From an uncultured Alistipes sp. (GTDB lineage: Bacteria > Bacteroidota > Bacteroidia > Bacteroidales > Rikenellaceae), in assembly GCA_900770585.1 (NCBI GenBank), contig CAAGKW010000001.1, positions 1 to 13,669 on the forward strand: a stretch of 13,669 nucleotides of DNA. The letters run 5' to 3'. The position numbers and the translations under genes are program-made. Of the stretch, positions 1 through 13,669 are shown one piece after another. Numbering within the stretch: position 1 is the stretch's first letter; every line of letters starts with the position of its first letter. The notes beneath the pieces are model-generated. The model did not search any database. It was not told where the DNA came from and worked only from the letters and a program-made list of their open reading frames with translations.

Positions 1-149
1 ACTCGTGGGCTGGGGCGGTCGCCCAAAGGGCGAGCCCACGAGTATGTGTCAAAATCAGAGATTTTGCCTGTTTTATTTTTCTAACCTATTAATTTCCAAG
101 CCAAAACCCAAAATTCTGAATTTTGAATCTTGAATTTTGAATTGAACAT
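1..149 (+). repeat. Bulged-hairpin intergenic repeat, copy 1
   Basis: This 149-nt non-coding stretch lies after the stop codon of the minus-strand TPR gene. Read on the plus strand, positions 1-10 (ACTCGTGGGC) pair with 34-43 (GCCCACGAGT). Positions 11-18 (TGGGGCGG) form a one-sided bulge, and 19-24 (TCGCCC) pair with 28-33 (GGGCGA) around an AAA loop. A second hairpin follows: 50-56 (CAAAATC) with 60-66 (GATTTTG). The tail is AT-rich and contains TTAAT (89-93) and CCAAAACCC (101-109). Copy 3 has the same order of parts, and copy 2 has the two hairpins. The left arm starts at the first base of the window, so the element may extend outside it. The function is unknown; it could be a mobile non-autonomous element or a structured 3' end. 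Confidence 0.75.
117..142. repeat. Short tandem direct repeat
   Basis: The 12-nt word TGAATTTTGAAT occurs exactly at 117-128 and again at 131-142, a period of 14 nt, inside the AT-rich tail of repeat copy 1. It looks like slippage-type repetition at the end of the element, next to the stop codon of the TPR gene. No function is proposed. Confidence 0.7.
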
Positions 150-848
150 TTAAGCTTTTCGCAGCGCCTCGATGAAACCTCCGAACTGCGCCCACAGGTG
201 CTCGGTCTGCAACCACAACTCGCGCGCCTGAGCCGCCACCGAGGGGCGTTCGCTCTCAATATCAGCCAAGTAACCCTCGTCAATGGGGTGCTCGTCGGCG
301 CGGAACTCATTGTAGTAGGCTGCGAAACGCTTGCCGAAGTTGCGCACCTCGACCGCAGGCAGTGTGCCCGTACGGCGAAACTCGCTCCACAGAGTCAGTA
401 TCGCCTTGTCGACCGATTTGTCGTTGATGTCGTCGGCAACATCGTCATAGGAGTCGTACTCCTCCATTGCTATGTAGGTGTAAGCCAAGCGGATAATGGC
501 TTCGAGATGATCCTCGGGATCGAGTTCGAGCAACATCTCGAACATCGCCGCCGCCATCTCCCAATCGCCAATCAGGAAGTGGTCGATGGCCGAACAGTAG
601 ACGACCTCCAAAGCCGCTTGCGAGTTGTCGTCCTCCCACTCGAAGATCACCTCACCCGACTCGGGCAGGAGCTCTTCGAGGCGTTGCACGGCGTGATAGC
701 GGGTGTTGCAGGCGGCCTCGATGTTGCCCTGCTTCTCCTCGCGGCGCGAGCGTGCGAGAATCTCAACGAAGTCCCAATTGCGGTCGGCGGGATCGGCAAC
801 CAAACGGAAGGTCTGGTCGGCCGTAGGTCTAAGCTGTGGTTTGATCAT
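150..848 (-). CDS. TPR-like protein coupled to cstA
   Basis: This is a 232-residue soluble protein without signal peptide or membrane segment, so probably cytosolic. Residues about 84-130 look like tetratricopeptide helices: a segment with W96, F103 and an LELDP turn at 107-111, followed by a helix pair rich in Ala and aromatic residues. The protein is acidic and mostly helical. I recognise no catalytic motif and no named family beyond TPR-like. The ATG at 846-848 lies inside the end of cstA, so the two frames overlap by 20 nt (829-848). This suggests translational coupling and a job linked to the transporter, for example as a regulator or partner, but that is inference from position only. 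The gene ends at the structured repeat 1-149. Confidence 0.8.
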   Translation of the reverse strand: MIKPQLRPTADQTFRLVADPADRNWDFVEILARSRREEKQGNIEAACNTRYHAVQRLEELLPESGEVIFEWEDDNSQAALEVVYCSAIDHFLIGDWEMAAAMFEMLLELDPEDHLEAIIRLAYTYIAMEEYDSYDDVADDINDKSVDKAILTLWSEFRRTGTLPAVEVRNFGKRFAAYYNEFRADEHPIDEGYLADIESERPSVAAQARELWLQTEHLWAQFGGFIEALRKA

Positions 849-2253
849 TGCGTCGTTTCCAGATGATAAATACGATTACGGTTACGAGGGTTATCACGCC
901 ACCAAGCACGTAGCTCAGCGTATGGTCGAGGTGGAACATCTCCTTTCCGAGGAAGAGGTAAGTACCACACACAAAGGTCATTACAATGGCAGGCAGGAGC
1001 GAAACCCAATAGTTCTTCTTGCGGCCGATGAGGTAGACCGTAACGGCCCAGAGCGTGAATACGGCCAGCGTCTGGTTGAACCACGCGAAGTAACGCCACA
1101 CCACATCGAAATCGACCAGCGTGATGATGAATCCCACCACAAACAGCGGAATCGAGATCGCCAGACGTTTCAGGAGGCTCTTCTGCTCGATGTGGAGGAA
1201 GTCGGCCACGATCAGTCGCGCACTACGGAACGCCGTATCGCCACTCGTGATCGGTGCAGCAATCACGCCCAGCACCGCCAGAATACCACCCACGCGACCG
1301 AGTGTCGTGTCGGCAATCAGCTTTACGGCCCACGAAGCGTTGTTGCCGTGCTCCGCCAACGCCGTACCCAGCGCCTCAACACCACCGAAGAAAGCCATCG
1401 CGATCGCCGCCCAAATCAGCGCAATCAGGCTCTCCGTGATCATCGCACCGAAGAACACGGGTCGGCACTGCTTCTGGTCGGTCAGGCAACGCGCCATCAT
1501 CGGCGACTGCGTAGCGTGAAATCCCGAAATCGCACCGCACGCAATAGTAATAAAGAGCGTCGGCACGATGGGGAAGTCCTCAGCGTCGGCCTTGAAGTTG
1601 TGCAACGAGGTCAGTTCGGGGATCGAGTAGTCGCCCGTGATCAGCACGCCCAACAGTCCGAGCGCCATAAACATCAACGCCGCACCAAACAACGGATAGA
1701 TGCGTCCGATGATCTTATCGACGGGCAGCAACGTAGCCAGAATGTAGTAAATCAGAATAATAGCAATCCACCACTGCAACGAGATCGAGGGTGTCATACC
1801 TGCCAGCAGACCCGCCGGTCCGAGCAGAAACACCGCACCGACCAGCACCATCAGGCAGACCGTGAACAGACGCATCACCTGCTTGACGCCCGAGCCGAGG
1901 TACTTACCGATGATCTCGGGCAGGCTCTGGCCATCGTTTTCGAGCGAGATCCAACCGCCCAGAAAGTCGTGCATCGCACCGAACAGAATACCTCCTGCCG
2001 TGATCCAGATGAACGCCACGGGACCGTAGAGCGCACCGAGCACCGCGCCGAAAATCGGACCAAGACCTGCGATGTTGAGCAGCTGAATGAGGAATGTTTT
2101 CCACTTCGGCAGGGGCATATAATCGACGCCGTCGAAGTGTGTTTGCGAGGGCACGGGCTTACCGGCCTCAGCTCCAACGAGCCGTTCGAGGTAGCGGCCA
2201 TAGACGAAATATGCCACCACCAACAGAGCGAAACAGATGATAAAGGTGATCAT
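829..2253 (-). CDS. cstA: Carbon starvation protein CstA, transporter
   Basis: This 474-residue polytopic inner-membrane protein has many hydrophobic helices from residue 2 (ITFIICFALLVVAYFVYGR) to the C-terminus. Family hallmarks are visible: the region at 46-100 with GLGPIFGA (63-70), TAGGILFGAMHDFLGG (85-100), and WISLENDGQSLPEIIGKYLG (101-120). The CstA family imports peptides and, in Enterobacteria, pyruvate during nutrient limitation. The substrate here is not known. The length fits the shorter CstA form; E. coli CstA is about 700 residues. The start is the ATG at 2251-2253, just downstream of a TATCTTCG box. The following TPR gene overlaps its 3' end, so both are probably one transcript. 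No LytTR two-component regulator is in the window. Confidence 0.95.
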   Translation of the reverse strand: MITFIICFALLVVAYFVYGRYLERLVGAEAGKPVPSQTHFDGVDYMPLPKWKTFLIQLLNIAGLGPIFGAVLGALYGPVAFIWITAGGILFGAMHDFLGGWISLENDGQSLPEIIGKYLGSGVKQVMRLFTVCLMVLVGAVFLLGPAGLLAGMTPSISLQWWIAIILIYYILATLLPVDKIIGRIYPLFGAALMFMALGLLGVLITGDYSIPELTSLHNFKADAEDFPIVPTLFITIACGAISGFHATQSPMMARCLTDQKQCRPVFFGAMITESLIALIWAAIAMAFFGGVEALGTALAEHGNNASWAVKLIADTTLGRVGGILAVLGVIAAPITSGDTAFRSARLIVADFLHIEQKSLLKRLAISIPLFVVGFIITLVDFDVVWRYFAWFNQTLAVFTLWAVTVYLIGRKKNYWVSLLPAIVMTFVCGTYLFLGKEMFHLDHTLSYVLGGVITLVTVIVFIIWKRRNDQTTA

Positions 2254-2272
2254 AGGCGAAAGTAATTTTATG

Positions 2273-2280
2273 CGAAGATA
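2273..2280 (-). promoter_or_regulatory. Candidate -7 box for cstA
   Basis: On the minus strand this reads TATCTTCG, which matches the Bacteroidetes -7 consensus TAnnTTTG at 7 of 8 positions. It lies about 20 nt before the cstA ATG, which would give a very short leader. The expected -33 TTTG about 19-21 nt upstream is not clear, so the call is moderate. Confidence 0.4.
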
Positions 2281-2333
2281 CGAATAAAAATCGGAGATTG
2301 TTCACTCTTTTGCGTCAGAATCGCCCCGAGACG

Positions 2334-2364
2334 TTGGAATTGCGATTCGATTTTTGTAACTTTA
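2334..2364 (+). promoter_or_regulatory. Candidate Bacteroidetes promoter, plus strand
   Basis: TTGG (2334-2337), a 19-nt spacer and TAACTTTA (2357-2364) fit the TTTG-N19-TAnnTTTG pattern with one mismatch in each box. The start point would be near 2371. It points away from cstA, towards the small cysteine-rich reading frame at 2432 and the tRNA. Confidence 0.45.
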
Positions 2365-2431
2365 CAACCCGATGTTGCGAATTAACGGGCGATTCGGCAA
2401 TGAGAATAATATCATATATCTGTAATATTTT

Positions 2432-2584
2432 ATGAACAAAACTACCCGCGTCGTATGCTTATGCATACTTGGTGCGGTGGGTTGCGAGGCGTGCGGCGAG
2501 AGTGGCTACGAGGTGCGAGGCGAGGTGTGCGACGGGGCAGGTTGCGGGCGAGGCACAGACAAAATTTGCGATAAAATGATATAA
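2432..2584 (+). CDS. Possible 50-residue Cys-rich peptide
   Basis: An ATG at 2432 opens a 50-codon frame ending in TAA at 2582-2584. The product has seven cysteines (9, 11, 18, 21, 33, 38, 46). It begins with a basic tip (MNKTTR) and a short hydrophobic run ending ILGAVGC, which resembles a weak lipobox with Cys18. A candidate promoter lies about 70 nt upstream. No homologous family is recognised. Against it: the stretch 2475-2555 is strongly G-rich and made of approximate repeats of TGCGAGGCG, which can produce a Gly/Glu/Cys-rich frame by chance, and no Shine-Dalgarno sequence is seen. The minus strand of the same stretch is also open, which lowers the weight of either frame. Confidence 0.25.
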   Translation: MNKTTRVVCLCILGAVGCEACGESGYEVRGEVCDGAGCGRGTDKICDKMI

Positions 2585-2597
2585 TTTGGTTTGAAAG

Positions 2598-2629
2598 TTG
2601 GAATATTCGAAATTTTTTTCGGATATTTG
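2598..2629 (+). promoter_or_regulatory. Candidate promoter of tRNA-Thr
   Basis: TTGG (2598-2601), a 20-nt spacer and GATATTTG (2622-2629) match TTTG-N20-TAnnTTTG with one mismatch in each box. Transcription would begin near 2636, about 26 nt before the mature 5' end of the tRNA. Confidence 0.5.
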
Positions 2630-2661
2630 CACCGCAAAAGGATCAAGACCTTTGAAGTGAT

Positions 2662-2734
2662 GCCGCAATAGCTCAGTTGGTAGAGCGTTTCACTCGTAAT
2701 GAAGAGGTCACGAGTTCAAGTCTCGTTTGCGGCT
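2662..2734 (+). tRNA. tRNA-Thr (anticodon CGT)
   Basis: This is a complete 73-nt cloverleaf. The acceptor stem is GCCGCAA (2662-2668) with TTGCGGC (2727-2733), and the discriminator is T2734. The D arm contains AGCTCAGTTGGTAGAGC. The anticodon stem TTTCA/TGAAG encloses the loop CTCGTAA, giving anticodon CGT, which reads ACG threonine codons. The T arm is ACGAG-TTCAAGT-CTCGT. CCA is not encoded; the next bases are CAAAA. The gene has its own promoter and a strong terminator, so it is a single-gene unit. Confidence 0.97.
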
Positions 2735-2735
2735 C

Positions 2736-2770
2736 AAAATGGCGATTACATCAGTAGTCGCCATTTTTTT
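2736..2770 (+). terminator. Rho-independent terminator after tRNA-Thr
   Basis: AAAATGGCGA (2736-2745) pairs with TCGCCATTTT (2758-2767). The stem extends inward through TTAC/GTAG (one G-T pair) to an ATCA tetraloop, about 14 bp in all. The right arm runs into seven T residues (2764-2770). It ends the tRNA transcript two bases after the tRNA. Confidence 0.9.
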
Positions 2771-2788
2771 GTGTCCGCCAAGGTGGTT

Positions 2789-2820
2789 TTTGCTTTTTTA
2801 GAATTAATTGACTAACTTTG
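2789..2820 (+). promoter_or_regulatory. Consensus Bacteroidetes promoter of the M64 gene
   Basis: TTTG (2789-2792), a 20-nt spacer and TAACTTTG (2813-2820) match the primary sigma factor consensus of Bacteroidetes in full. The start point would be near 2827, giving a leader of about 38 nt before the ATG at 2865. Confidence 0.75.
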
Positions 2821-2864
2821 TTGAAACTATAATCATCTCTAAGTTAAACTTATAAGTGGCCTCA

Positions 2865-4721
2865 ATGAGATACTTTCTACTTAGTATAATTACCCTTATG
2901 ACTCTTGTTGCTTGTGAGGACAACGACAACGAGTCGAATGTGGAACCGCAAAAGCCACAGGTGGAGATTCAATACTCTGCGGAGGAGAGGCAGGCGTTGA
3001 TAGATCTCTATAACGCAACCAATGGTCCTAATTGGTCACGAAATAACACTAATTGGTGCACAGAGGAGCCCTTATCGAAATGGGCGGGTGTGCAGTGTGA
3101 TAGTGGGCGTGTTGTAGGACTCTCGTTGTTCCTCAGCAATCTTAACGGCACAATCCCTCAATCGTTTGGCAATCTGAAACATCTGAAAAACTTAGATCTC
3201 AGCAATAACTATTTGCGGGGACCTATACCCACATCGGTTATGAACTCGCCGTGGTGGAATAGGTTGTGGCACAAGTTTCTACCTCAGCGCGACAACGGAA
3301 TCGCTGAGAGCGAACTGGTGATTCACGCCCCAAAATTTAGCTGTACCGATGCCAATGGTCAAATGGTCGACAATAGCATATTCGGTCGATATACATATAC
3401 GATATTCTATTGCGGGAAGCCTAATACGTCGGAGATGACTATCTTCAGATCGCTATATTCAGCCTACAAAGAGCAGATCGGATTTGTCGTAAATATCAAA
3501 GGTGCAAGCCCCAGCGAATGTAAAGATTTCGCCGATCAGTCACCGATTCCGATGACCGTGATTGCGACATCAAAGTCGAGTGACCTCAATCCATATCCAA
3601 ACAACAAAGTCAGTGTATTCGACCAGAGTGGCATAATGATATTCAATCCTTATTTCCATTCGTGTGTCGATCTTTTCGATCTCTTTGGCGAGCGGATTGG
3701 CCCAATCGAGGAGTATATCGACTATTCGCAAGATGGCGTAGTGGAGAAGTTGCAGAGCGCAGAAGAGGGCAATGGAATCAACATTATTTTGATGGGTGAT
3801 GCCTATACGGATTGGATGATTGCCGAGGGGCTGTATGACCAAACGATGAGAGGGTCGATGGACAAACTATTCACGGTAGAACCGTATAAGAGTCTGCGCC
3901 AATTGTTCAATGTCTATTCGGTTAAGGTTGTTTCGAAATGTGGTGGCTATTTTGCTGGCGCAGAGACGGCGTTAGAGTGCACTTTTGGTTCGGGAACGCA
4001 CGTCGGAGGCAACAAAAGCAAGGTGTTGAACTATGCAAGCAAGGTGCTGAACGAAGAGCAGATGGACGAAGCGGTCATCGTAGTTATAATGAATAGCACC
4101 CAATATGCGGGCACTTGTTACTTTTATTATCCGTCGGGGGCATTGGCCGATTATAGTCGAGGTTTGACCATATCGTATGTCCCGCTGGGGGCCAATGAGG
4201 CCGAAATGGAGCGTACACTACACCACGAAGCGTGTGGGCACGGCTTTGCCAAACTTGCGGACGAGTATGTCAATGAATCAGAGGTCGCGGACCATTCAAG
4301 ATATATGGCACAACATTACCAATATAACTATGGTTGGTACAAAAATATCGATTTCACAGGCGATCCTAAGCTCATTCGTTGGGCGAAGTTCATTGCCGAT
4401 CCACGTTATGCTGACGAGAAAATTGGTGCATACGAGGGGGCATATTATCGCAGAACGGGTGCTTGGCGTTCGCGCGAAACGAGTATAATGGTCCACAACA
4501 CGGGAGGCTTCAATGCTCCGTCGCGTGAGGCGATCTACTATCGTGCACACAAATTGGCCTACGGGGCAGAGTGGCAATATGACTACGAGGAGTTTGTGGA
4601 GTGGGACACCCCAAATCGTACGGCACCCACAACGACCCGAAGCTCTACCCCGATGATATATGCTCCGACTGCTGCTCCTATTATTATTAGTAAAGATTGG
4701 CGCGATGAACTGACCAAATAG
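2865..4721 (+). CDS. LRR and M64 zinc peptidase lipoprotein
   Basis: Starting at the ATG 2865 gives 618 residues; a GTG three codons upstream (2856) is possible but less likely. The N-terminus is a lipoprotein signal ending LVAC with Cys17, followed by acidic EDNDNE, the kind of signal that sends lipoproteins to the surface in Bacteroidetes. Residues about 38-125 are plant-type leucine-rich repeats (LYNATNG, LSNLNGTIP, LDLSNN). Residues about 145-280 look thioredoxin-like but lack CxxC. From about 300 the M64 (IgA peptidase-like) domain follows, with ILMGDAYT and the zinc site HHEACGHGFAKLADEY at 453-468. Members of this family cleave glycoproteins such as IgA; the substrate here is unknown. 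The gene is AT-richer than the neighbouring operon and ends 4 bp from the convergent DUF4296 gene. Confidence 0.9.
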   Translation: MRYFLLSIITLMTLVACEDNDNESNVEPQKPQVEIQYSAEERQALIDLYNATNGPNWSRNNTNWCTEEPLSKWAGVQCDSGRVVGLSLFLSNLNGTIPQSFGNLKHLKNLDLSNNYLRGPIPTSVMNSPWWNRLWHKFLPQRDNGIAESELVIHAPKFSCTDANGQMVDNSIFGRYTYTIFYCGKPNTSEMTIFRSLYSAYKEQIGFVVNIKGASPSECKDFADQSPIPMTVIATSKSSDLNPYPNNKVSVFDQSGIMIFNPYFHSCVDLFDLFGERIGPIEEYIDYSQDGVVEKLQSAEEGNGINIILMGDAYTDWMIAEGLYDQTMRGSMDKLFTVEPYKSLRQLFNVYSVKVVSKCGGYFAGAETALECTFGSGTHVGGNKSKVLNYASKVLNEEQMDEAVIVVIMNSTQYAGTCYFYYPSGALADYSRGLTISYVPLGANEAEMERTLHHEACGHGFAKLADEYVNESEVADHSRYMAQHYQYNYGWYKNIDFTGDPKLIRWAKFIADPRYADEKIGAYEGAYYRRTGAWRSRETSIMVHNTGGFNAPSREAIYYRAHKLAYGAEWQYDYEEFVEWDTPNRTAPTTTRSSTPMIYAPTAAPIIISKDWRDELTK

Positions 4722-4725
4722 TCCT

Positions 4726-5601
4726 CTACTCGATTCGGGGTGGGAGGGCGAAGTAGAGCGCGCTGTCGGCGGCCGTGGCGGGCGGTTCGGGAGCGTAGAA
4801 ATTCTCAACCAGCAGGCGGAATCCGAAGTTGCGGGCCGTCAGCGTATCAAGCGCCTCAGCTCGTGACGGATAGAACTTAACCGTCAGTGAATCAATCGTA
4901 AAGTGCGGGCGCGAGGGTTTCTCGTTCAGGTTGCAAAGCTCCAAAACCAGCTCCCGTGCTGTCGAATCGGCCATAAACGTATGGATATACTTGTCGCGCG
5001 TCTGGCGACGGTAGCGCAACGTGTAGAACTTCGAGCGGCGCTCGGTCGAATCGACCAAATAACCCACCGTGCGGTGGCTCGGATTCTTGTCGGTCGAGTC
5101 GATACGGTAGTAATACTCAACAAGATACTCGCCCGCGCGCGGGATTGGGATACGGCGTTTCATCTTGGCCGTGTCGGACACCGAGCGCATACGGATCGTC
5201 GTATCGAAATAGATGCGTTGCACGCTGGCACGGCGAGCGATGGCGTTGATCGTGTCGAGGTCGGCCACCTGCGCATTCAGAAGGTCCGACTCACGTTCGA
5301 GGCGCTGGATCGCAAGTTCCACAGCGTCGGACAATCGGGCGCTCTTTCGTTTGGAGAAACTATTGATCGTAATATGCAGATCTTCAACCGTATAACCATA
5401 CTTCTCGAAGATCGGTTCATAGAGCATCATACTGTCGAGCGAGATGTCGTGGCGATCGACATAGGCGTTTGTGAGGTAGACATCGTAGAAGATATCGGCC
5501 AGGCGGTCGTCGGGGATCACGCGCGGCTTGTTGCAGGCCGAAATGAGGGCCACCAGCGCCACCAACACGAGGCTTCGTATCAGGGTTTTCATCTGTTTCA
5601 T
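4726..5601 (-). CDS. DUF4296 lipoprotein
   Basis: This 291-residue protein starts with a lipoprotein signal ending LISAC, with Cys23 as the lipid-attachment residue. Residues about 27-110 fit DUF4296: the IPDDRLADIFYDVYLTNAY segment followed by charged helices. The remaining two thirds carry no motif I recognise. Predicted location is the periplasmic face of the envelope. Its ATG overlaps the stop of the upstream permease gene in an ATGA (5598-5601), so it is the last gene of the minus-strand run and translationally coupled to the permease. A second ATG three codons in (5592) is also possible. The function of DUF4296 proteins is unknown; linkage to a LolC/E-type permease hints at lipoprotein or envelope traffic. 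Confidence 0.85.
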   Translation of the reverse strand: MKQMKTLIRSLVLVALVALISACNKPRVIPDDRLADIFYDVYLTNAYVDRHDISLDSMMLYEPIFEKYGYTVEDLHITINSFSKRKSARLSDAVELAIQRLERESDLLNAQVADLDTINAIARRASVQRIYFDTTIRMRSVSDTAKMKRRIPIPRAGEYLVEYYYRIDSTDKNPSHRTVGYLVDSTERRSKFYTLRYRRQTRDKYIHTFMADSTARELVLELCNLNEKPSRPHFTIDSLTVKFYPSRAEALDTLTARNFGFRLLVENFYAPEPPATAADSALYFALPPRIE

Positions 5602-6818
5602 TTCTCTATTTTGGTTTCGGCAGGGCGGATCATCGTGCGCACGGTCAGCTGTGTGATTGCCGTCGTTACGACCGCCATTGCCGCTATAATCAACAATATA
5701 TCAGTTAGTTTCATCTCGACGGGGTAGTATCTCACCACGAACGTCGTGCCGGGCATTTCGATCAGTCCGAACTGCTGTTGCGCCCAGCAGACACCTACGC
5801 CGATCACCAATCCGAGCACGGCGCCGAGTGTTCCGATCAGTGCTCCCTCGCCCGTGAAGATCGAGCGAACGAACTCGGTACGTGCACCGAGGGCTCGCAG
5901 CGTGGCGATGTTGTCGCGTTTGTCGATGATGAGCATTGCCAGCGAGCCGACGATCGAGAACGAGGCGATGATCAGCACCAGCAGCGAGATGAAGAAAATA
6001 CCCCACTTTTCGTACTTCATAATGCGGTACAAGGCCGCCTGCTGTTCCAATCGAGTCACGACCCGAAACTCCTCACCCACAACTCGTTGCACCTCGTCGC
6101 GGGTGCGCTCTACCGACTCCTCGTCGCGCACGTCGATGAGCAGTTGCGAGGCGCGACCGTCGTAGTCGAACAACGACTGCGCCAGCTCGATCGTGGTCAG
6201 AATATATGCGTTATCGACATCGCCACTGATCGTAAAAACGCCCGAGGGCCACGTGCGACGCGAGGTATAGGCGTCGAAGGGCAGCAGTGTCGAGATCTCG
6301 CCACGGCGGGGCGAATAGAGGTTCAGAGGGGTGTCGAGGAAGGTTCGCACGCCGAGCTGGTAGGCCACACCCGAGCCGACGCAGGCCTGCTCGATCTCGC
6401 CCAGACGCAGTTCGAAATCGCCCGTGCGGACATACTCGTCCATCGGCAGCACGTCGCTATAATCGCTGTCGACGCCACGCACCGTGACCACCACCTGACG
6501 ACCTCCGTACTCGGCTAATGCGCTCTGTTCCAGCGCAAACGACACTCCTCGCACGCCCGCAACCGAGCGCAACGAATCGGTCGGCAGAGCCTCGATCGCG
6601 AATGTCTTACCCTCGCGCGGGCGCACCTCCAAATCGGCATCGAAGGCCGACTGCATACCGTCGACCAGCGCCGTAAAACCGTTGAACACCGACATCAGAA
6701 TGATCATCGCCGCCACGGGCACACCCACGGCCACGACACTCACCGCGGAGATCACATTGATCACCGAGTGCGACTTGGCCGAAAACAGATAGCGGCGGGC
6801 AAACAACAGCGAGAGCAT
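5598..6818 (-). CDS. LolC/LolE/FtsX-type ABC transporter permease
   Basis: This 406-residue protein has the MacB/FtsX layout: a first membrane helix at about 20-48, a large periplasmic domain to about 265, then three helices at about 274-299, 323-345 and 373-395. The cytoplasmic loop after helix 2 (DKRDNIATLRALGA) is the typical coupling segment that contacts the ATPase. The N-terminal pattern FARRYLFSAKSHSVINVIS is that of LolC/LolE, which release lipoproteins from the inner membrane for transfer to LolA. The matching ATPase (LolD) is not in the window. The gene follows rbfA by 41 nt, an order I associate with Bacteroidales. LolC versus LolE cannot be decided in a group that may use one permease type. 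Confidence 0.88.
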   Translation of the reverse strand: MLSLLFARRYLFSAKSHSVINVISAVSVVAVGVPVAAMIILMSVFNGFTALVDGMQSAFDADLEVRPREGKTFAIEALPTDSLRSVAGVRGVSFALEQSALAEYGGRQVVVTVRGVDSDYSDVLPMDEYVRTGDFELRLGEIEQACVGSGVAYQLGVRTFLDTPLNLYSPRRGEISTLLPFDAYTSRRTWPSGVFTISGDVDNAYILTTIELAQSLFDYDGRASQLLIDVRDEESVERTRDEVQRVVGEEFRVVTRLEQQAALYRIMKYEKWGIFFISLLVLIIASFSIVGSLAMLIIDKRDNIATLRALGARTEFVRSIFTGEGALIGTLGAVLGLVIGVGVCWAQQQFGLIEMPGTTFVVRYYPVEMKLTDILLIIAAMAVVTTAITQLTVRTMIRPAETKIEK

Positions 6819-6859
6819 TGCTTCCTTCGGGCTTGGTTAAGTAACTGAGCGAGCGACGA

Positions 6860-7201
6860 TTACTCCTCTTTGAGCAGGGTATCGATATTGGCGATATACT
6901 CCAACGAATCGTCGAGGAAGAACTGCAATTCGGGCACGCTCTTCACCTGGTTGCGGATACGCTGACCCAACGCGCGACGGATCATCCAGTTGTTCTCTTC
7001 GAGCGTGCGCATCACCTCGGTGCTCTTCTCGAAGGGGAAGATGCTGAAATAGATCTTGGCATAGTTCAGGTCGGGCGACACGCGCACGGTGGTCACCGAC
7101 GCCATCACGCCACGCACCAACGAGGCGCCCTCTTTGAGCAGAATCTCGGCAACGTCCTTCTGAATCTGACGCGCCATTTTAGCTTGTCTTGTGCTTTCCA
7201 T
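6860..7201 (-). CDS. rbfA: 30S ribosome-binding factor RbfA
   Basis: This 113-residue cytoplasmic protein is near the usual RbfA size (E. coli 133). RbfA binds the pre-30S subunit and helps mature the 5' end of 16S rRNA, notably in the cold. Visible family features are the N-terminal helix with RQAKMARQIQKDVAEIL, the strand SPDLNYAKIYFSIF, and the KH-type segment RRALGQRIRNQVKSVPELQF containing the helix-kink ALG motif, followed by DDSLEYIANIDTLL. The C-terminal tail ends KEE. The start is the ATG 7199-7201, 28 nt after the stop of the upstream barrel gene. Confidence 0.95.
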   Translation of the reverse strand: MESTRQAKMARQIQKDVAEILLKEGASLVRGVMASVTTVRVSPDLNYAKIYFSIFPFEKSTEVMRTLEENNWMIRRALGQRIRNQVKSVPELQFFLDDSLEYIANIDTLLKEE

Positions 7202-7229
7202 TTATTGTTTGTTTTTGCTTGTTAATCAA

Positions 7230-8099
7230 TTATTTAGCATTTGCCGATTGCAACGCGGCACGCTTCGGCGACGCAGCCTCGGCGGCCGCTTTGGCGGCCT
7301 TGCGCTCGGCCTCGACACGACGTTTCTCGGCACGACGGGCACGGCTCTCGCGCATACGTTCGAAGGCCGCAAACTCGCTCGCCTTGCCCACTCGATAGCC
7401 GTAACCGATGGTCATATAGATGTTGTCGATGGGCGAACGACGTGGCGTGGTCGCAAAGGGATTTTCGGGGCCGTCGGTGGCGTTGCCCGCATATTTGTTG
7501 GTGTTGCGCAGGATGTCGCCATAGCCGAAGTAGTAGCGCGCACCGATCGAAAATTCGTTACGCCCCGCCAGGTAGGCCGCACCGCCACCGCCCGCCAGGC
7601 CGTAGTTCCAGCGGTTGTCGCGCACCAGCTTGAAGTTGTAGGTGCCCGACGTGCCCTGCAACTCATTGACGTAGGTCGACGAGATGTTGTAGGCGAACGT
7701 AACCGCCAGGTCGATATAGACTCGCAGGCGGAAATCGGCCAAATAAAAGTGTGGTTGCCAGACGATTGGCACCAGCACCGAGTTGATATGGCGCGTATAT
7801 CGCAGAGCCTTTGTTTCGGGATTTTCCGACGAGAAATAGGGGTAATACGAGTAGCCGCGCTTCATAAATTCGATGTCGGCACCCACCGCACCGACAAATC
7901 GCTCGGCGGTGTAGTGACGCCACGTGACGCCGCCCGTATATCCGCCCCACATCATTCGCATCTCCTGCTTGGGGTAGAAACGCGCCGTCGACGCGCCCCA
8001 GCCGCCCTTGACTCCAAAGACGTGCTGAGCCTGTGCGGTGAGCGTGATGCCGATCACCGCCACGAGTGTCGTGAGTATGGTTATGATCCTCTGTTTCAT
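7230..8099 (-). CDS. Outer-membrane beta-barrel protein with basic tail
   Basis: The frame is open up to 8246, but the proper start is the ATG at 8097-8099, giving 289 residues. It begins MKQR, has a hydrophobic signal peptide ending AQAQ, and avoids overlap with the upstream gene. The body is made of alternating aromatic and polar strands (GGYTGGVTWRHY, FVGAVGADIEF, FSIGARYYFGYGD, YMTIGYGYRV) typical of small Bacteroidetes porin-like barrels. The oddity is the C-terminus: after the last strand at about residue 238 come about 51 residues rich in Ala, Arg, Lys and Glu, probably one long basic helix, where a barrel usually ends with an aromatic residue. Specific function is not recognised. It starts 4 nt after the Ig-like lipoprotein gene. 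Confidence 0.82.
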   Translation of the reverse strand: MKQRIITILTTLVAVIGITLTAQAQHVFGVKGGWGASTARFYPKQEMRMMWGGYTGGVTWRHYTAERFVGAVGADIEFMKRGYSYYPYFSSENPETKALRYTRHINSVLVPIVWQPHFYLADFRLRVYIDLAVTFAYNISSTYVNELQGTSGTYNFKLVRDNRWNYGLAGGGGAAYLAGRNEFSIGARYYFGYGDILRNTNKYAGNATDGPENPFATTPRRSPIDNIYMTIGYGYRVGKASEFAAFERMRESRARRAEKRRVEAERKAAKAAAEAASPKRAALQSANAK

Positions 8100-8103
8100 C
8101 TGT

Positions 8104-10155
8104 TTAGAAATTAAAGTTTGAGCCGAAACCGCCGAACGGATTGCTCGAATTGTTGCGTGTGCCCTCCTCTTTGCGGCGTTTCTCCTCCTCGCGTTTCTTG
8201 CGTTGTTCCTCGTAGAACTTGACCAAACGAACGCTCTCGCGCGCATCGAGCTGGCGGATCAGCGACTGCATCGTCACGGGGGCAAACATTCGGTTCATAT
8301 CGGCTACGATCTCGACATCCCAATTCATCTTGGTGGCAATCACCTCCTCGTCGCGCTCGTTGTGATAGATCTCGACACGCTCGGGCTGGCGGCTCTCGAT
8401 CAAGTTGCCACTATCCCAGCGACCGTTGCCGTTCACGTCCTCAACAATTCGCACATTGTATTCACCCTCAGTCACATAGCTGAACGTATGCGTACCCGTG
8501 CGGGCGTTACGGATCTGGTCGATCACCTTCTTGCCGTCCGAGCCCGTAAGTTGCAGAATGTAGGTGGCCGAGTCGCTCTTGCCACGCAGCTCGACGATCA
8601 CTTTGGCATACTTCTCGGCCGCCATCGTGGTCAGCTCCTTGCCGATCGAGTCGTTGGCATAGCCCGCAACATCGACAAAGGTCGAGTCGGGAATCACCAA
8701 TTTATATTTCAGTCCGTCGCCCCACTTGGTCATCAATCGCCAGCGACGCATATTGGTCGTGTCGCGCATCAGGGTGATCGGGACATTACGAGTCTGCTGC
8801 TTGTTGTCGATCTCGGCGAGCGTGATCGACGCGGTATCCAACTTCACCAGCGGATACTCGAACTCCAACTCCAAACCGCGCTCGGGGTTGATGTCGCCCG
8901 AGGTCGTGATGCGGTACGAGAAGGGGTTCTTCGCAGGGGGCGGAGTGTATTCGACGCCTGCCTCCTCGGCCTTTTTGCGTTCGCGCTCCTCGCGTTCGCG
9001 GGCACGCTCCTCCTCCTTGGTTTCGATCTTGCGCCACGGCAACATCAGCTGCTCGGTGGTGATATTGAGGGTGTTGGTGGTGTCGTGCTTCATATAGACG
9101 ATTCGACCGCGAATGGTGTCGGGCAGCTCTTCGGGCGCAACATTCAGCCACAACGACATCGTGTCGCGGCCCTCGGTCTGGTACTCCCAGATCACCTGCT
9201 CCGAGGCGATGCTATCCAAAATAATGCTGTCGATCTGCGGGCGTGGCGCACCGAAACGTAACACTGCCTGGTTGCTCTTGGGTCGCTCGAAGGCGGTCAG
9301 CATCTGACGTTTGAAGGTGCCATCCATAAACATTCGCATATAGAGCTGCGGCTCACCCGTCACGTAGCGACGCAGCGAGTCGTACCAAATGGCAAACTCC
9401 TGCATCTGGGCGGGGTTCTGCTCCTCCTCGACGAAACCCACAAGGTCCGTTCCCGGGTCGTACATCTGGTTGTCGTTCTTATCTTGGAACGCATAGATGC
9501 GGTAGGCGGTGGGCTTCAAGTTCTTAGCCAGGAAGATACCGTTGGTCTCGGCACGGGCAATGGCGTCGGGCTCTCGGCGCAACATCGTCGAATCGAACTC
9601 CGAGGTGCGCACCAACGTATCGAGTGCCAGCGAATCGGCACGATAGAAGTAGATGTAACTCTTCGCCACGCTATCCGACTTCTGTGCGTCGGCCGTATAA
9701 CCCGACATCCACATCGAGTCGATCTCCTCGCCCGTCGAGAAGACATACGAGAACGAGTGCAGGGGGTTACCCTCGTTGTTGTCGCGCAACGACGCACCGA
9801 AATTGAGCACGTAGGTCTGATCGTCGCGCAGGGTATCCTTGATGTCGATCAACACGCCGCGACCACGAATCGAGAGCGTCGGTTTGGTCTTCATTCGGGG
9901 CGATGTGAAGAACTCCTTATGTTGGTCTTTGAGCTGCACATACTCGTTGAACTCGACGAAGATACGCTTTGCAGCGAACTTTGTCGTATGGTTCTCGGGC
10001 GTAGCGACCATCAGCACGGGCGGAATCGTGTCGCGCGGGCCGCCCTGCGGGGTTGTGGTGTTGGCACAGCGCACCAGCATCGACGAGAGAAACAGCAACA
10101 GAATGGCTGTTTTCGCCGCCGTGCGGAGCGTTAGCGTCTTTTTCAGAAGAGTCAT
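8104..10155 (-). CDS. Ig-like (Big_5/SbsA-type) domain lipoprotein
   Basis: This 683-residue protein begins with a lipoprotein signal ending LVRC (Cys30), then ANTTTPQGGPRDTIPPV, the standard opening of a large Bacteroidetes lipoprotein family. Residues about 42-142 form one Ig-like domain of the Big_5/SbsA type. Residues about 375-405 are a charged K/E/R-rich stretch that could be a helix or coiled coil. A segment with NVRIVEDVNGNGRWDSGN near residue 595 resembles a carboxypeptidase-like or Cna-B-like fold with an acidic, perhaps calcium-binding, loop. The C-terminus has a second charged stretch and ends GGFGSNFNF. It is probably anchored in the outer membrane. The role is unknown, perhaps structural or in surface assembly. 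It sits between an unknown lipoprotein gene and the barrel gene. Confidence 0.85.
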   Translation of the reverse strand: MTLLKKTLTLRTAAKTAILLLFLSSMLVRCANTTTPQGGPRDTIPPVLMVATPENHTTKFAAKRIFVEFNEYVQLKDQHKEFFTSPRMKTKPTLSIRGRGVLIDIKDTLRDDQTYVLNFGASLRDNNEGNPLHSFSYVFSTGEEIDSMWMSGYTADAQKSDSVAKSYIYFYRADSLALDTLVRTSEFDSTMLRREPDAIARAETNGIFLAKNLKPTAYRIYAFQDKNDNQMYDPGTDLVGFVEEEQNPAQMQEFAIWYDSLRRYVTGEPQLYMRMFMDGTFKRQMLTAFERPKSNQAVLRFGAPRPQIDSIILDSIASEQVIWEYQTEGRDTMSLWLNVAPEELPDTIRGRIVYMKHDTTNTLNITTEQLMLPWRKIETKEEERAREREERERKKAEEAGVEYTPPPAKNPFSYRITTSGDINPERGLELEFEYPLVKLDTASITLAEIDNKQQTRNVPITLMRDTTNMRRWRLMTKWGDGLKYKLVIPDSTFVDVAGYANDSIGKELTTMAAEKYAKVIVELRGKSDSATYILQLTGSDGKKVIDQIRNARTGTHTFSYVTEGEYNVRIVEDVNGNGRWDSGNLIESRQPERVEIYHNERDEEVIATKMNWDVEIVADMNRMFAPVTMQSLIRQLDARESVRLVKFYEEQRKKREEEKRRKEEGTRNNSSNPFGGFGSNFNF

Positions 10156-10190
10156 CTTTCGAGTTTATACTTAACTACTTACGTTCGTTG

Positions 10191-10778
10191 TTAGTCAATC
10201 GGATCGGCGGGTGTGTATTGACCCTCGTTCGAGCCGTTGCCTTCGTCACCCTCGTCGGGTGTTTCGGGATCGGGTGTTTCGGGTACTTCGGGCGCAACGT
10301 ATGCCTCGTTGTTCATTCGCCACGGACCCTCGACATAGCGCTTCTTGGCCGACCACGGACGGAACGTGACGCTCACATAGAGGTCGGGCAGATTCTCCAC
10401 CACCTCGGTCATACGCCACGCAAAGAGTCGGTTCACGGGATCGACCACCACGATCGTCGCGGGCGTAGCCGTCAGCTGCAACACCACGACCGTATCCTGC
10501 TGCTCGGCACGCGCCATTGCGTCGGAGCGTTTCTCGCCCGTGGTCTTCGAGGTCAGCACCCCATTCAGCGCGTCCTCATACGAGGCGACGGTCCACTGCG
10601 TCGTGTCGGCCGCAAAGGCATAGGCGATCATCCCCTCGCCCTGCACCGCAACACCGCCCGACTCGGCCTGATAGTAGGGTCGGAGGTTGTAGCGACAATC
10701 CATCGTCACCTTCTTGAAACAGCCCGTCGCGGCGACCGCCAAAGCCGCCAAAGCTATGATTCTAAGCCATTTATTCAT
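10191..10778 (-). CDS. Uncharacterised lipoprotein, acidic Pro-rich tail
   Basis: The ATG at 10776-10778 is preferred over the TTG two codons upstream, giving 195 residues. The start codon lies across the folK stop region (8-nt overlap), so translation is probably coupled. A lipoprotein signal ends AATGC with Cys20. The middle part, with several beta-type strands and Ala/Val-rich turns, matches no family I recognise. A second Cys follows eight residues after the lipid site. The last 40 residues are rich in Pro, Glu, Asp and Gly (PEVPETPDPETPDEGDEG), a flexible acidic tail that may stick out from the membrane. It lies between folK and the Ig-like lipoprotein. Confidence 0.7.
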   Translation of the reverse strand: MNKWLRIIALAALAVAATGCFKKVTMDCRYNLRPYYQAESGGVAVQGEGMIAYAFAADTTQWTVASYEDALNGVLTSKTTGEKRSDAMARAEQQDTVVVLQLTATPATIVVVDPVNRLFAWRMTEVVENLPDLYVSVTFRPWSAKKRYVEGPWRMNNEAYVAPEVPETPDPETPDEGDEGNGSNEGQYTPADPID

Positions 10779-11289
10779 TTCCAATTACTTCACTTTCGTG
10801 TTTCGAGAGCAACTCCGCACGCAGCTCCTCCATCGTCTTGCCCGATACGGGGTGCTTGCGGCCCTTCATCAACTCGCACAGCGGAGCCAGCACGAAATCG
10901 CGCTCCTCGATCAGCGGGTGAGGAATAGTCAGTCGGGGCGACTCGATCACCAGATCGTCATAGAACAGAACGTCGATGTCGATCATACGCGACGAGTAGT
11001 GAGCACCCGTTTCGGCTTTGAGGCGGGTCTCCTCCTCGCGGTCGCGACCCAACTCGCGCTCGATGGCCTGAACTGCGTCCAGAACCTCGTCAGCCGACAG
11101 ATCGGTGTCGACTTCCAAAACCTGATTCGAGAACTCATCGTCCGACGAGAAACCCCACGGACGGCTCTTATAACGGTGCGAGCAGCGCAGCACGATACCC
11201 ACCTTATCGTTGATCATTCGTTGTGCGGTGCGCAGGCGCGACTTCACGTCGCCCAGGTTGCCGCCGGTAATTAATGTTACACGTGCCAT
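10771..11289 (-). CDS. folK: HPPK, folate biosynthesis pyrophosphokinase
   Basis: This is a 172-residue 2-amino-4-hydroxy-6-hydroxymethyldihydropteridine diphosphokinase. It transfers pyrophosphate from ATP to the pterin alcohol, the step before dihydropteroate synthase. Visible motifs: GGNLGD at 9-14 (the usual SLGSN[LM]GD region, here ITGGNLGD), SRPWGF at 42-47, F53/N55/Q56, IERELGR at 76-82, the metal-binding SRMIDIDVLF with Asp104 and Asp106, and IPHPLIEERDFVLAPL further on. The length fits the family. It starts 27 nt after the stop of holB and its end overlaps the next lipoprotein gene. Confidence 0.95.
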   Translation of the reverse strand: MARVTLITGGNLGDVKSRLRTAQRMINDKVGIVLRCSHRYKSRPWGFSSDDEFSNQVLEVDTDLSADEVLDAVQAIERELGRDREEETRLKAETGAHYSSRMIDIDVLFYDDLVIESPRLTIPHPLIEERDFVLAPLCELMKGRKHPVSGKTMEELRAELLSKHESEVIGNE

Positions 11290-11316
11290 ATTCGGTTGAA
11301 GTTTTAAGTTTTTTGT

Positions 11317-12459
11317 TTATAGTTTTACAATTAATTTGCTGATTGCCAATGCAAAATGTGTCGCCACGATCAACGGATTGCCATTCTGGACGATCTGTCC
11401 GCGGGCGGTCTCGATCTCGGCCACGAGAGCCTCGATGTTGTGGTTGCCCACAAAGGGTGCGAACTTCGAGCAGAATGTTGCCTCATCGGCCCATAGGTAG
11501 CTGATCTCGCCCATACCTGCGTTGAGCATATAGCTCTCGCGCAGCAGTCGGAGCGAGTCGCCAAAGAAGGCTATCTGGCGGTCGCGGGTCAGCGTCGCAA
11601 ACGACTCGGCCCAATCCAACAGGCCGAGGTGTTTGTTGCTGTAACTCAGGCGCATCAACGTGCAGAACATATCGAACGACGACGCCGACATCTGATCGCC
11701 ACCCTGCACCAGACGACGTGCCTCGATCAGGTCGCCACACGCCAGACGCGCCAACTGCTCGGCACGCTCGCGCTCCAAACCACTCTCGGCAACAAGTTGT
11801 GCGGTCAGGTCCTCGCTGTCGATACGTGGCACCGCCACCTCCTGCGTACGCGAGATGATGGTCGACAACAGTCGCTGGGGCTGGCTGCTAACCATCAGGA
11901 AGAGGGTCTTGTCCCACGGCTCTTCGAGGATTTTGAGCAGTGTGTTTGCCGCCTCGTTGTTCATCAGCTCGGGCAGCCACACCAGCACGATCTTATACTC
12001 ACCCTCGTAGCTCTTGTACGACAACGTGCGGATTATCTCGCCCGCATCGTGCACCGAAATGAGGGGTTTGAGCGTCTTACCCAGGTCGAGCTTATCGTTC
12101 CACATCGCCTCGTCGAAGTAGGCACCCGTAGCCGTGATCATCTCGCGCCACGGTTTGAGGAAATCGCCACTCATCATCTTCTCGCCCGACTTTTTGCCCT
12201 GCTTGTTGACCGGAAAAACAAAGTGCAAATCGGGGTGAACCAACTCAGCCATCTTGCGACACGACGGGCACTCGCCACACGAGTCGCCATCGTGGCGGTT
12301 GCTGCAATTGACATACTGAGCGTATGCCAATGCCATCGCAAACGCTCCGCCACCGCACTCACCCGTGAAGAGTTGAGCGTGGCTCACACGTCCCTGATCG
12401 ACCGCTCGACGCAATCGCTCCTTAATCTGGTCGTGTCCTATTACCTCCGAAAATCGCAT
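11317..12459 (-). CDS. holB: DNA polymerase III delta prime subunit
   Basis: This 380-residue clamp-loader subunit belongs to the AAA+ family and acts in loading the sliding clamp. The N-terminus has the expected VIGHDQIKERLRRAV and SHAQLFTGECGGGAF (26-40). The Walker A lysine is replaced (Ala39), as expected for a delta prime that does not hydrolyse ATP. Four cysteines at 52, 61, 64 and 67 form the zinc-binding module. LLKILEEPWDKTLFLMVSS followed by LLSTIISRTQ are the typical sensor and SRC-like region, here SRT. The start is the ATG 12457-12459. It is the first gene of the minus-strand run. No clear promoter was found between it and the hairpin repeats. Confidence 0.92.
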   Translation of the reverse strand: MRFSEVIGHDQIKERLRRAVDQGRVSHAQLFTGECGGGAFAMALAYAQYVNCSNRHDGDSCGECPSCRKMAELVHPDLHFVFPVNKQGKKSGEKMMSGDFLKPWREMITATGAYFDEAMWNDKLDLGKTLKPLISVHDAGEIIRTLSYKSYEGEYKIVLVWLPELMNNEAANTLLKILEEPWDKTLFLMVSSQPQRLLSTIISRTQEVAVPRIDSEDLTAQLVAESGLERERAEQLARLACGDLIEARRLVQGGDQMSASSFDMFCTLMRLSYSNKHLGLLDWAESFATLTRDRQIAFFGDSLRLLRESYMLNAGMGEISYLWADEATFCSKFAPFVGNHNIEALVAEIETARGQIVQNGNPLIVATHFALAISKLIVKL

Positions 12460-12503
12460 TTCCAGTCAGTTTTCTTTGTTTTTGTGTTCTCTGCTTCTAA
12501 CAC

Positions 12504-12599
12504 GCACCTTTGCGGGCTGGGGGGGTCGCCCGAAGGGCGAGCCCGCAAAGGTGCCCGCCATATGGGCGAGTTTTGCTGTTTAATTTGTTTCCACTAAAT
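12504..12599 (+). repeat. Bulged-hairpin intergenic repeat, copy 2
   Basis: Positions 12504-12517 (GCACCTTTGCGGGC) pair with 12541-12554 (GCCCGCAAAGGTGC), a 14-bp perfect stem. Positions 12518-12525 (TGGGGGGG) are the one-sided bulge, and 12526-12531 (TCGCCC) pair with 12535-12540 (GGGCGA) around a GAA loop. A weak second hairpin, CGCC (12556-12559) with GGCG (12565-12568), and a T-rich tail follow. The inner part matches copy 1, while the outer arms are unrelated in sequence. It is the first unit of a tandem pair with a period of about 96 nt. Confidence 0.8.
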
Positions 12600-12715
12600 C
12601 CAAGTTCGGCGGCTGCGGGGGTCGGCCTTCGGCTGAGGCGCTGAACTTGGGCAGTTTCCACAGAAACTGCCATTAATATTCTCAATCCAAAACCCGCAAT
12701 TCCAATAATTGTGGA
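12600..12715 (+). repeat. Bulged-hairpin intergenic repeat, copy 3
   Basis: CCAAGTTC (12600-12607) pairs with GAACTTGG (12643-12650), and the stem continues inward through GGCGGC/GGCGCT with one G-T pair and one G-G mismatch. The bulge is TGCGGGGG. The upper stem is TCGGCC with GGCTGA (one G-T pair) around a TTC loop. The second hairpin is GCAGTTTC (12651-12658) with GAAACTGC (12663-12670), loop CACA. The tail has TTAAT (12673-12677) and CCAAAACCC (12687-12695) as in copy 1. It ends next to the stop of the truncated Fic gene. This copy is the most diverged. Confidence 0.72.
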
Positions 12716-13669
12716 TTATTTCTCCTCTTCCTTCATCAGATCAATGAATACGGGCATAGCGTCTCTGACCGCATCGGGAGAAAGGGGTGTATGCTTAGAA
12801 CCACGAATGTAAACTTGTCCAGTTCTATATCCAATCAGGTCTGAAGGCTTGATGATACCGGCTACGATACAGGGTTGAAACATCTCAAAGTGCCAATTCT
12901 CAAAATTACGCCCGGCGATTTCTCCTGCATTGCCGTTCTGAATAATCTCCCTTACACTTTCCTTAACTTGCAGGAATGCCTGATAATACCCTCTTGCCGC
13001 TAATGCGTTCTTGCGTTCTGCATCTGTCTTATCATCCTTAGGATTCCATTCACCAGAACGCACTCGTTCTATAAGTCCTTCTGTAACTCTGTAACCCTCG
13101 ATTGACAGGGAGTGATAAGAGTCTCTAACATAGTTCTCGTCCATGTTACCAAGAACCTCCTCCAAGGATAATGTTGAATTAGCTGCCTTTGGATTCAATG
13201 CAAGAATCTGTTCTTTCATCTTCTTCCACATCAGGCGTAAGCGTATTGTATAGGGAGAAATGATACGACCACTTGCAAACGTGCTTTCCATTTTATCCTC
13301 AAAAGGGTCCTCGGGACGCAGATTGTGACCTATTCTTACCATATAGTCAAGGATTCTCTGAGCCATTTCCTCGCGCCCGACATTGCGAAGAGCACCAACC
13401 AATCTTGATGCTCTGGATGAATTTCCTTCATCTGCAACTTCCCTTAGTATTTCATCCGCACTACCAACCATCAAAAGACATGTACGTGCATTTACAGCAC
13501 TCTTCTTGAAGTACGTGGGAGTACAAAATGCCAAAGCTTCGGGCAGAGTGTACAATCTTAAACCATATCTTGGTTCGATGTACACCTGTCTGGGCATCGA
13601 GGCAGTGATGTCCAATAATGAGTCGCCATGTTTCAGCTGGATGATGTTATTACTGGCTTTTGTGGAACG
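12716..13669 (-). pseudogene. Fic family protein, catalytic end missing
   Basis: The frame is open from the window edge, so the 5' end is outside; 317 residues are visible. A TTG at 13615 is an in-frame alternative start but probably not the real one. Numbering from that TTG, residues 62-105 (EGNSSRASRLVGALRNVG, then HNLRPEDPF) and 121-230 match the N-terminal half of Fic proteins. S169-L-S-I-E173-G174 is the (S/T)xxxE(G/N) inhibitory motif. IGYRTGQVYIRGSKHTPLSP (261-280) is the start of the Fic core. The frame ends in LMKEEEK just where such proteins continue to HPFxxGNGR, so about 100 C-terminal residues with the catalytic His are absent. Complete Fic proteins transfer AMP or related groups to target proteins. 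GC content (about 42 percent in a sampled 60 nt) is far below the neighbouring operon, suggesting transfer. Confidence 0.8.

Follow-up and report, generated by a model that had tools for sequence, protein, structure and literature searches.

What keeps a hairpin paired when the sequence of its arms changes from copy to copy, and how do such copies come to lie where they do? This question is raised by a 13,669-nt stretch of DNA from an uncultured Alistipes sp. of the Rikenellaceae (contig CAAGKW010000001.1, positions 1–13,669; here called the window), which contains three copies of a repeat built around a hairpin with a one-sided G-rich bulge. An initial annotation of these copies had proposed that the folded form, as RNA or single-stranded DNA, is what is preserved. 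The explanation that we favour, and consider reasonably probable, is that they belong to a lineage-restricted superfamily of small non-autonomous mobile palindromes, similar in kind to repetitive extragenic palindromic (REP) sequences and miniature inverted-repeat transposable elements (MITEs). It builds on what we observed of the structure and covariation of the units, their dispersal, their presence or absence at corresponding sites, the exchange of occupants in shared intergenic slots, and nesting and cargo.

Architecture of the repeat unit

The copies lie where the initial annotation had placed them, with the 8-nt bulges, 6-bp inner stem and 3-nt loop that it had described. Each consists of a first hairpin (H1) and a second hairpin (H2), with scores taken from a covariance model.

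1–43, + strand: copy 1, H1 hairpin; outer stem 1–10/34–43, bulge TGGGGCGG at 11–18, inner stem 19–24/28–33, loop AAA
50–66, + strand: copy 1, H2 hairpin; CAAAATC AGA GATTTTG
12474–12582, + strand: segment of ~109 nt with copy 2, not in the orthologous site of loci L018 and L037
12504–12554, + strand: copy 2, H1 hairpin; bulge TGGGGGGG, inner stem and loop TCGCCC GAA GGGCGA, 68 bits
12556–12568, + strand: copy 2, short H2; CGCC ATATG GGCG in the fold (4 bp only), with a T-rich tail, below the score at which H2 was counted
12601–12649, + strand: copy 3, H1 hairpin; bulge TGCGGGGG, inner stem and loop TCGGCC TTC GGCTGA, 43.6 bits
12650–12671, + strand: copy 3, H2 hairpin; GGCAGTTTC CACA GAAACTGCC

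Copy 1 is truncated at its 5' side by the start of the window, and its H1 is matched by the model at 1–46 (48.6 bits). In 200 shuffles of the window the core pattern was found 0.00 times on average, compared with three times in the true sequence. RNA folding agrees with the plan for copies 1 and 2; in DNA folding of these two copies the centroid is the plan and the minimum-energy form is shifted by one base. Copy 3 is the weakest, a degenerate copy with one G-G mismatch in the outer stem and one G.T in each stem, and its inner part is paired otherwise in the lowest-energy fold. H2 begins 0–6 nt after H1 in each of the three copies. The common plan that had been proposed for them holds for H1 and has to be extended by H2, which the text of the annotation did not name although its end coordinates take it in.

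In close kin, the unit is ~75–110 nt long and consists of a short 5' tail, H1 and, directly behind it, H2. H1 comprises an outer stem, an 8-nt one-sided 5' bulge of the form TG.GG.GG and an inner stem that is usually TCG..CGA. The set examined contains 108 copies, two finder hits unlike the family (L151 9884 and L015 2094) having been removed beforehand, and our shape finder demands an outer stem and a TG/G-rich bulge, so that both features are present in the 108 copies partly by construction. Independent tests are provided by a core-only set of 73 copies and by H2, neither of which was picked by outer pairing. H2, on which no search had selected, is above the score in 100 of the 108 copies against 2 of 108 when shuffled, and copy 2 of the window is among the eight copies without a counted H2. 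Its sequence is free; 43 strings were counted for the stem and 41 for the loop, though fewer are truly different since the boundaries vary.

The units fall into core types. Type I has TGGGGCGG or TGCGGGGG with TCGCCC..GGGCGA, type II is GGG TGGGGGGC TCGGCC..GGCCGA CCC, type III TCGCGCAA..TTGCGCGA, type V GGCG TGGGGCGG CGCGACT..AGTCGCG GG CGCC and type VI CGTGCGAC..GTCGCACGA, and the same recurring distal arms occur with several of them. Units can be nested, as in L146, where a type VI unit lies within type II arms, and at five sites (L143:9654–9786, L154:14015–14148, L160 12350–12620, L259 and L261) the H1 loop carries a cargo of ~85–100 nt. The cargo-loaded copy of L259 is without its right arm, and L160 and L261 carry the same cargo despite a different bulge and inner stem.

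The loop cargo terminates in a second repeat, CCCGCCCATATGGCGGG, and parts of it look palindromic with altered arms. A separate repeat family around AGCAAAACCCGCCCATATGGCGGG, for example at L143 10074–10290, was seen in 45 distinct stretches of the loci examined (some of the loci overlap); in some places its copies stand in tandem at a period of about 97 nt, and it frequently abuts H1 and sometimes acts as H2.

Pairing is retained while the sequence changes

In an alignment of 53 copies, drawn from a search that demanded outer pairing, 98.5% of cells pair against 79.9% when shuffled. Both sides have changed in 12 of its 19 pairs, the cells with two-sided changes number 171 against 48.4 in shuffled alignments, and in a control in which partners were slid by 1–3 columns only 34–44% of cells pair. 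An alignment of 25 diverse copies is 96.4% paired against 72.7% shuffled, with changes on both sides in 14 of 18 pairs. In the 73 core-only copies, from which L116 and L117 were left out, outer pairs 3–13 are Watson–Crick in 755 of 803 cells, whereas dealing the arms anew gave 517 such cells on average and 568 at most. The covariation of the inner stem noticed in the three window copies is borne out above background in alignments of many copies, and further copies lie in related genomes, so that neither of the outcomes that the annotation had named as refuting the family was seen. Arms, inner stem and H2 all vary with pairing retained. The outer arms, described as unrelated yet self-pairing, do keep their pairing while they change, but they are not entirely free: beside the bulge the outer stem almost invariably reads GGC/GCC (or GGG/CCC), and the distal arms form recurring sets.

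The strong covariation in the 53- and 25-copy alignments would also suit a structured small RNA or mRNA 3'-end family, in which H1–H2 would be transcribed, the G-rich bulge would bind a protein or base-pair with targets and selection on the RNA would keep the stems. Selected RNA is expected to favour G.U over A.C pairs. The non-Watson–Crick outer pairs of the core-only copies comprise 12 G.T, 12 A.C and 24 others, and this equality is as expected of copies that decay free of selection for RNA pairing. In REPs, a high frequency of GT pairs has been read as support for transcription (PMC3733652). Furthermore, in 16 comparisons of same-site copies across genomes, which are not all independent and in which the 'same element' was allowed no more than 8 arm differences, 268 of the 280 pairs had stayed as they were, 11 had changed on one side and one on both. 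The sole two-sided change, between L080 and L100, may be a replacement, and H2 differs between these loci as well. With G.T no commoner than A.C and 11 of 12 same-site changes one-sided, the case for a host RNA fold that is maintained in place is not a strong one, and on this point we depart from the initial annotation, which had taken the folded form itself to be preserved. It seems rather that the fold matters, or is made, when copies multiply. The free stems and loops of H2 likewise speak against an RNA family, as does the comparison with Rfam 15 at gathering score, which for the window, L144, L147 and L158 returned a single tRNA and no match to the repeats; a known Rfam family was rejected on this basis.

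A second alternative dispenses with selection on the fold altogether. Intrastrand template switching could perfect palindromes, which recombination between repeats would then spread, and this would account for pairing that is near-perfect although one-sided changes build up in place, as well as for the many combinations of arms and cores. When G1C4 82600 is compared with G002, the shorter form resembles, by reading, a hairpin-templated rearrangement. However, template switching should erase the one-sided 8-nt bulge, which nevertheless persists (in sets that come from searches demanding or scoring the bulge), and alone it leaves new copies at new sites unexplained. We regard it as decidedly improbable.

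Distribution across genomes

The superfamily is lineage-restricted. Further copies were found in related genomes both by pattern scan and by covariance model search. When species genomes were scanned for the core pattern, 42 stretches came up, of which 39 lie in five Rikenellaceae/Alistipes metagenome-assembled genomes (MAGs) from ruminants; the other three (L009, L022 and L031) were taken as chance and excluded from all counts. With up to three mismatches, the pattern occurs at 47, 22, 4, 9 and 8 places in the five genomes and its reverse at 0, and in G001 the two strands are used about equally (22 and 25). Run over four joined stretches from G001 and G002, the shape finder marked 30, 11, 4 and 3 places against 1, 0, 2 and 1 for the reversed sequence; of the 11 places in G002 C16, at least two (7325 and 29884) are unconvincing.

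With the covariance model built from the 53 copies, matches at E ≤1e-3 were found in 22 of the 268 genomes from the family of G001, several of them with at least 22 matches; two of these carriers, G174 and G227, are doubtful, as they are without the plan on reading. More distant species have the same plan with arms of their own, and H2 is clear in G091, G141, G179, G118, G013, G109, G049, G019, G099 and G036. Across 393 genomes drawn from the order, the model of 25 diverse copies matched only G001 and one candidate of 36 nt in G411 (E 1e-6). The narrow pattern is present in 6 of 151 genomes of the genus, and two of these six, G116 and G072, have one place each with one mismatch, probably by chance. 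A phage origin was rejected on finding the core pattern in 0 stretches of viral contigs, and a plasmid origin on finding no match to a 206-nt stretch of the window in plasmids. Several contigs start or end within ~100 nt of an H1 copy (C50, C2, C74, C79 and C81 of G091, and C54 of G048), where either the repeat or some longer unit may interrupt the assembly.

Presence, absence and exchange of copies

L018 and L037 lack copy 2 at the site orthologous to that of the window, and the neighbouring copy 3 occupies the same site in both. The site of copy 2 is T-rich, with TTTGTTT on both sides, and the ends of the extra segment are uncertain by several nucleotides. Soon after copy 3 the sequence of L018 and L037 differs from that of the window, so that synteny breaks there. 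Two further cases are a copy in L017 that is not present in L063 and a type III copy in L144, adjoining an intrinsic-terminator-like hairpin, that is not in L110.

For 15 copies in C8 and C20 of G001 both flanks were found in G002, and 11 of these sites are occupied there; of the four called empty, two carry a unit, truncated or with a loaded loop, that escaped the finder. Among 65 orthologous intergenic regions of the C8, C20, C4 and C25 stretches (60 nt or longer in G001, with flanks of 80% identity or more and genes from a simple caller of longest open reading frames (ORFs)), 7 are occupied in both genomes, 3 in G001 only, 2 in G002 only and 53 in neither (Fisher P 6e-6). In four of the seven doubly occupied regions the occupants share no arm-plus-orientation while the flanks are 92–99% identical, and a Fisher test counting those four regions only still gives P 9e-4; additional pairs with exchanged type or orientation come from a draw that was not unbiased. 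Double occupancy by differing occupants indicates that sites are reused, with the type of the occupant changing and often its direction too.

Genomic context

Of 79 copies, 51 lie between two called genes and 22 overlap a called ORF of at least 80 aa. The upstream gene is co-oriented with the copy in 26 of the 51 cases (P 1.0); copies thus follow no rule of orientation towards it, which counts against an RNA family. A rule of location was also rejected: in G001, 9 of 43 convergent, 16 of 84 tandem and 4 of 38 divergent intergenic regions are occupied, with no clear bias.

The motif T[AT]..TTTG was found on the same strand within 60 nt before H1 in half of the copies (53 of 106); on the opposite strand it was found in 15, and downstream in 30 of 108. 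TTTG peaks ~18 nt 5' of H1. The motif could represent either the left boundary of the unit or a target sequence; it could also be part of a promoter, which is a point for a family of structured RNAs. The full motif TA..TTTG, which we take to be the Bacteroidetes -7 element, occurs upstream in only 4 of 106 copies against 21 of 108 downstream, and a classic Bacteroidetes promoter driving a small RNA gene was rejected as weakly supported. Taking the context together with the pairing data, we think that an RNA family is unlikely. Strong stem covariation in a repeat family is, by itself, no evidence of a functional RNA.

Intrinsic-terminator-like hairpins (AAAGCCRCGCTC..GAGCGYGGCTTTTT) were seen ~20 nt before H1 in L083, L027, L144 and L158, and a landing preference for such hairpins is possible. 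Positions 100–145 of the window contain heptad-like runs (TTGAATT/TTGAATC and TTGTGAA), and similar runs lie beside many intergenic hairpin copies. At 2856–4721 the window encodes an M64-type peptidase (PF09471) whose N-terminal part is leucine-rich-repeat-like by eye, and the gene at 12716–13615 has no Pfam match at E 1e-3.

How the copies may move

If the units are mobile palindromes, as we suggest, copies would multiply as DNA, and an enzyme acting in trans would recognize the folded single strand by its bulge and stems. The shape would be required at copying while the sequence of the stems would be free to drift, and copies, once landed, would decay mostly without selection for pairing. 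The units are probably handled as folded single-stranded DNA. From the sequences searched, the enzyme that mobilizes them does not appear to be a detectable Y1 transposase or REP-associated tyrosine transposase (RAYT). Mobilization by a reverse transcriptase was rejected as well; RVT_1 is present in five of eight carriers and missing from three (G002, G004 and G005). In the loci examined, a scan for longer autonomous relatives flanked by half-elements met only long forms explained by the loop cargo of ~85–100 nt.

Several results weigh against mobility. No consistent target-site duplication was seen by eye in the three presence/absence cases, and the ends of the element are fixed only to within several nucleotides. 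Y1_Tnp was found in none of five carriers and in two of 151 genomes of a genus draw (G079 and G130), neither of which is a carrier. A RAYT model gave no match in the 15 of the 22 carriers that were searched, including the four outside the genus draw; the other seven carriers were first listed in the genus draw, and in a draw of the same kind (129 genomes unlisted) Y1 was found only in G079 and G130. The genomes compared are MAGs or genomes of unstated completeness, and it is possible that a transposase was lost in assembly. Orientation is not fully random, the downstream gene being co-oriented in 17 of 51 cases (P 0.02), and H2 was not seen in the G016 and G063 copies. Of the one-sided in-place changes, five led to G.T, three to A.C and three to a mismatch, which gives G.T a lead. 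In addition, H1 is conserved in place above its close flanks in 9 of 12 comparisons (L077/L097 show the reverse), which could reflect host constraint and is a further point for an RNA family.

A more specific proposal, which we put forward tentatively, is that these palindromes have a mobility system of their own, in which an enzyme other than Y1/RAYT reads the shape of the G-bulge hairpin rather than the sequence of its stems and lands units in fixed intergenic slots whose occupants replace each other. If true, the slot would be inherited, and the occupant and its orientation would turn over between genomes with 92–99% identical flanks. Two features deserve further attention, namely the exchange of occupants within slots and the missing mobilizer.

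Comparison with known systems

The best-known small bacterial palindromic repeats are tied to RAYT transposases. Like REPs and the bacterial interspersed mosaic elements (BIMEs) that go with RAYT (TnpA-REP) transposases, the units described here are short extragenic palindromes in many copies per genome, with bulged stems that some REPs share, subfamilies with alternative complementary stem residues and lineage-specific types. They could therefore be thought of as orphans of RAYT-type REPs, whose TnpA-REP mobilizer has disappeared or is encoded in genome sections that the MAG assemblies do not cover. In contrast to REPs, however, GT[AG]G (GTAG/GTGG) stands at the 5' foot of only 3 of 108 copies, the carriers searched are without Y1 and RAYT, the bulge is 8 nt long and G-rich, there is no G.T excess, and the unit is larger, with two hairpins in close kin; the second, free in its sequence, is present in 100 of the 108 copies. 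With the tag so rare and the enzyme not found in the carriers searched, identity with RAYT-REPs was rejected, and an orphan origin appears very unlikely.

REPs are described as palindromes of 20–40 bp in PMC3733652, which also treats CGTC-tagged REPs. The latter are likewise palindromic repeats without a dedicated transposase, and Bacteroidetes are among their reported hosts (PMC3733652); here, CGTC was found in 0 of 108 copies at the 5' foot and in 0 after H2, and 11 of 108 have its complement, GACG, at the 3' foot. The initial annotation had known of no named family with this shape, and our literature searches, with preprints and most subscription papers outside their coverage, found no paper describing it. 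The kind, on the other hand, is a known one, since REP-like palindromes with alternative complementary stem residues appear in PMC3733652. The nearest published lead, by description only, comes from Bacteroidetes, where atypical structures flank the genes of TnpA-REP subclass 2.6 (PMC6006769); the enzyme was not found in the carriers searched here.

A MITE of a DDE transposon would be expected to show a target-site duplication; the three presence/absence cases gave no consistent one, and copy 2 lies at a T-rich site with TTTGTTT on both sides. The ends of IS200/IS605 elements and their palindrome-associated derivatives have two hairpins near the ends that are recognized as a folded single strand, and these elements are not known to make a target duplication. 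Two hairpins are common to both systems, and recognition as a folded single strand would be as well, whereas here no Y1 transposase was found in the carriers searched and both strands are about equally used in G001. Interspersed repeats with modular or conserved secondary structure are also represented by bcr1 of Bacillus cereus and by the BOX/RUP type, and we know of no sequence relation to these. Set beside these systems, the superfamily is abundant and apparently recently active without a RAYT in any carrier searched, and its bulge is fixed while its stems and H2 drift, which makes it a natural data set for asking what moves hairpins that are defined by shape.

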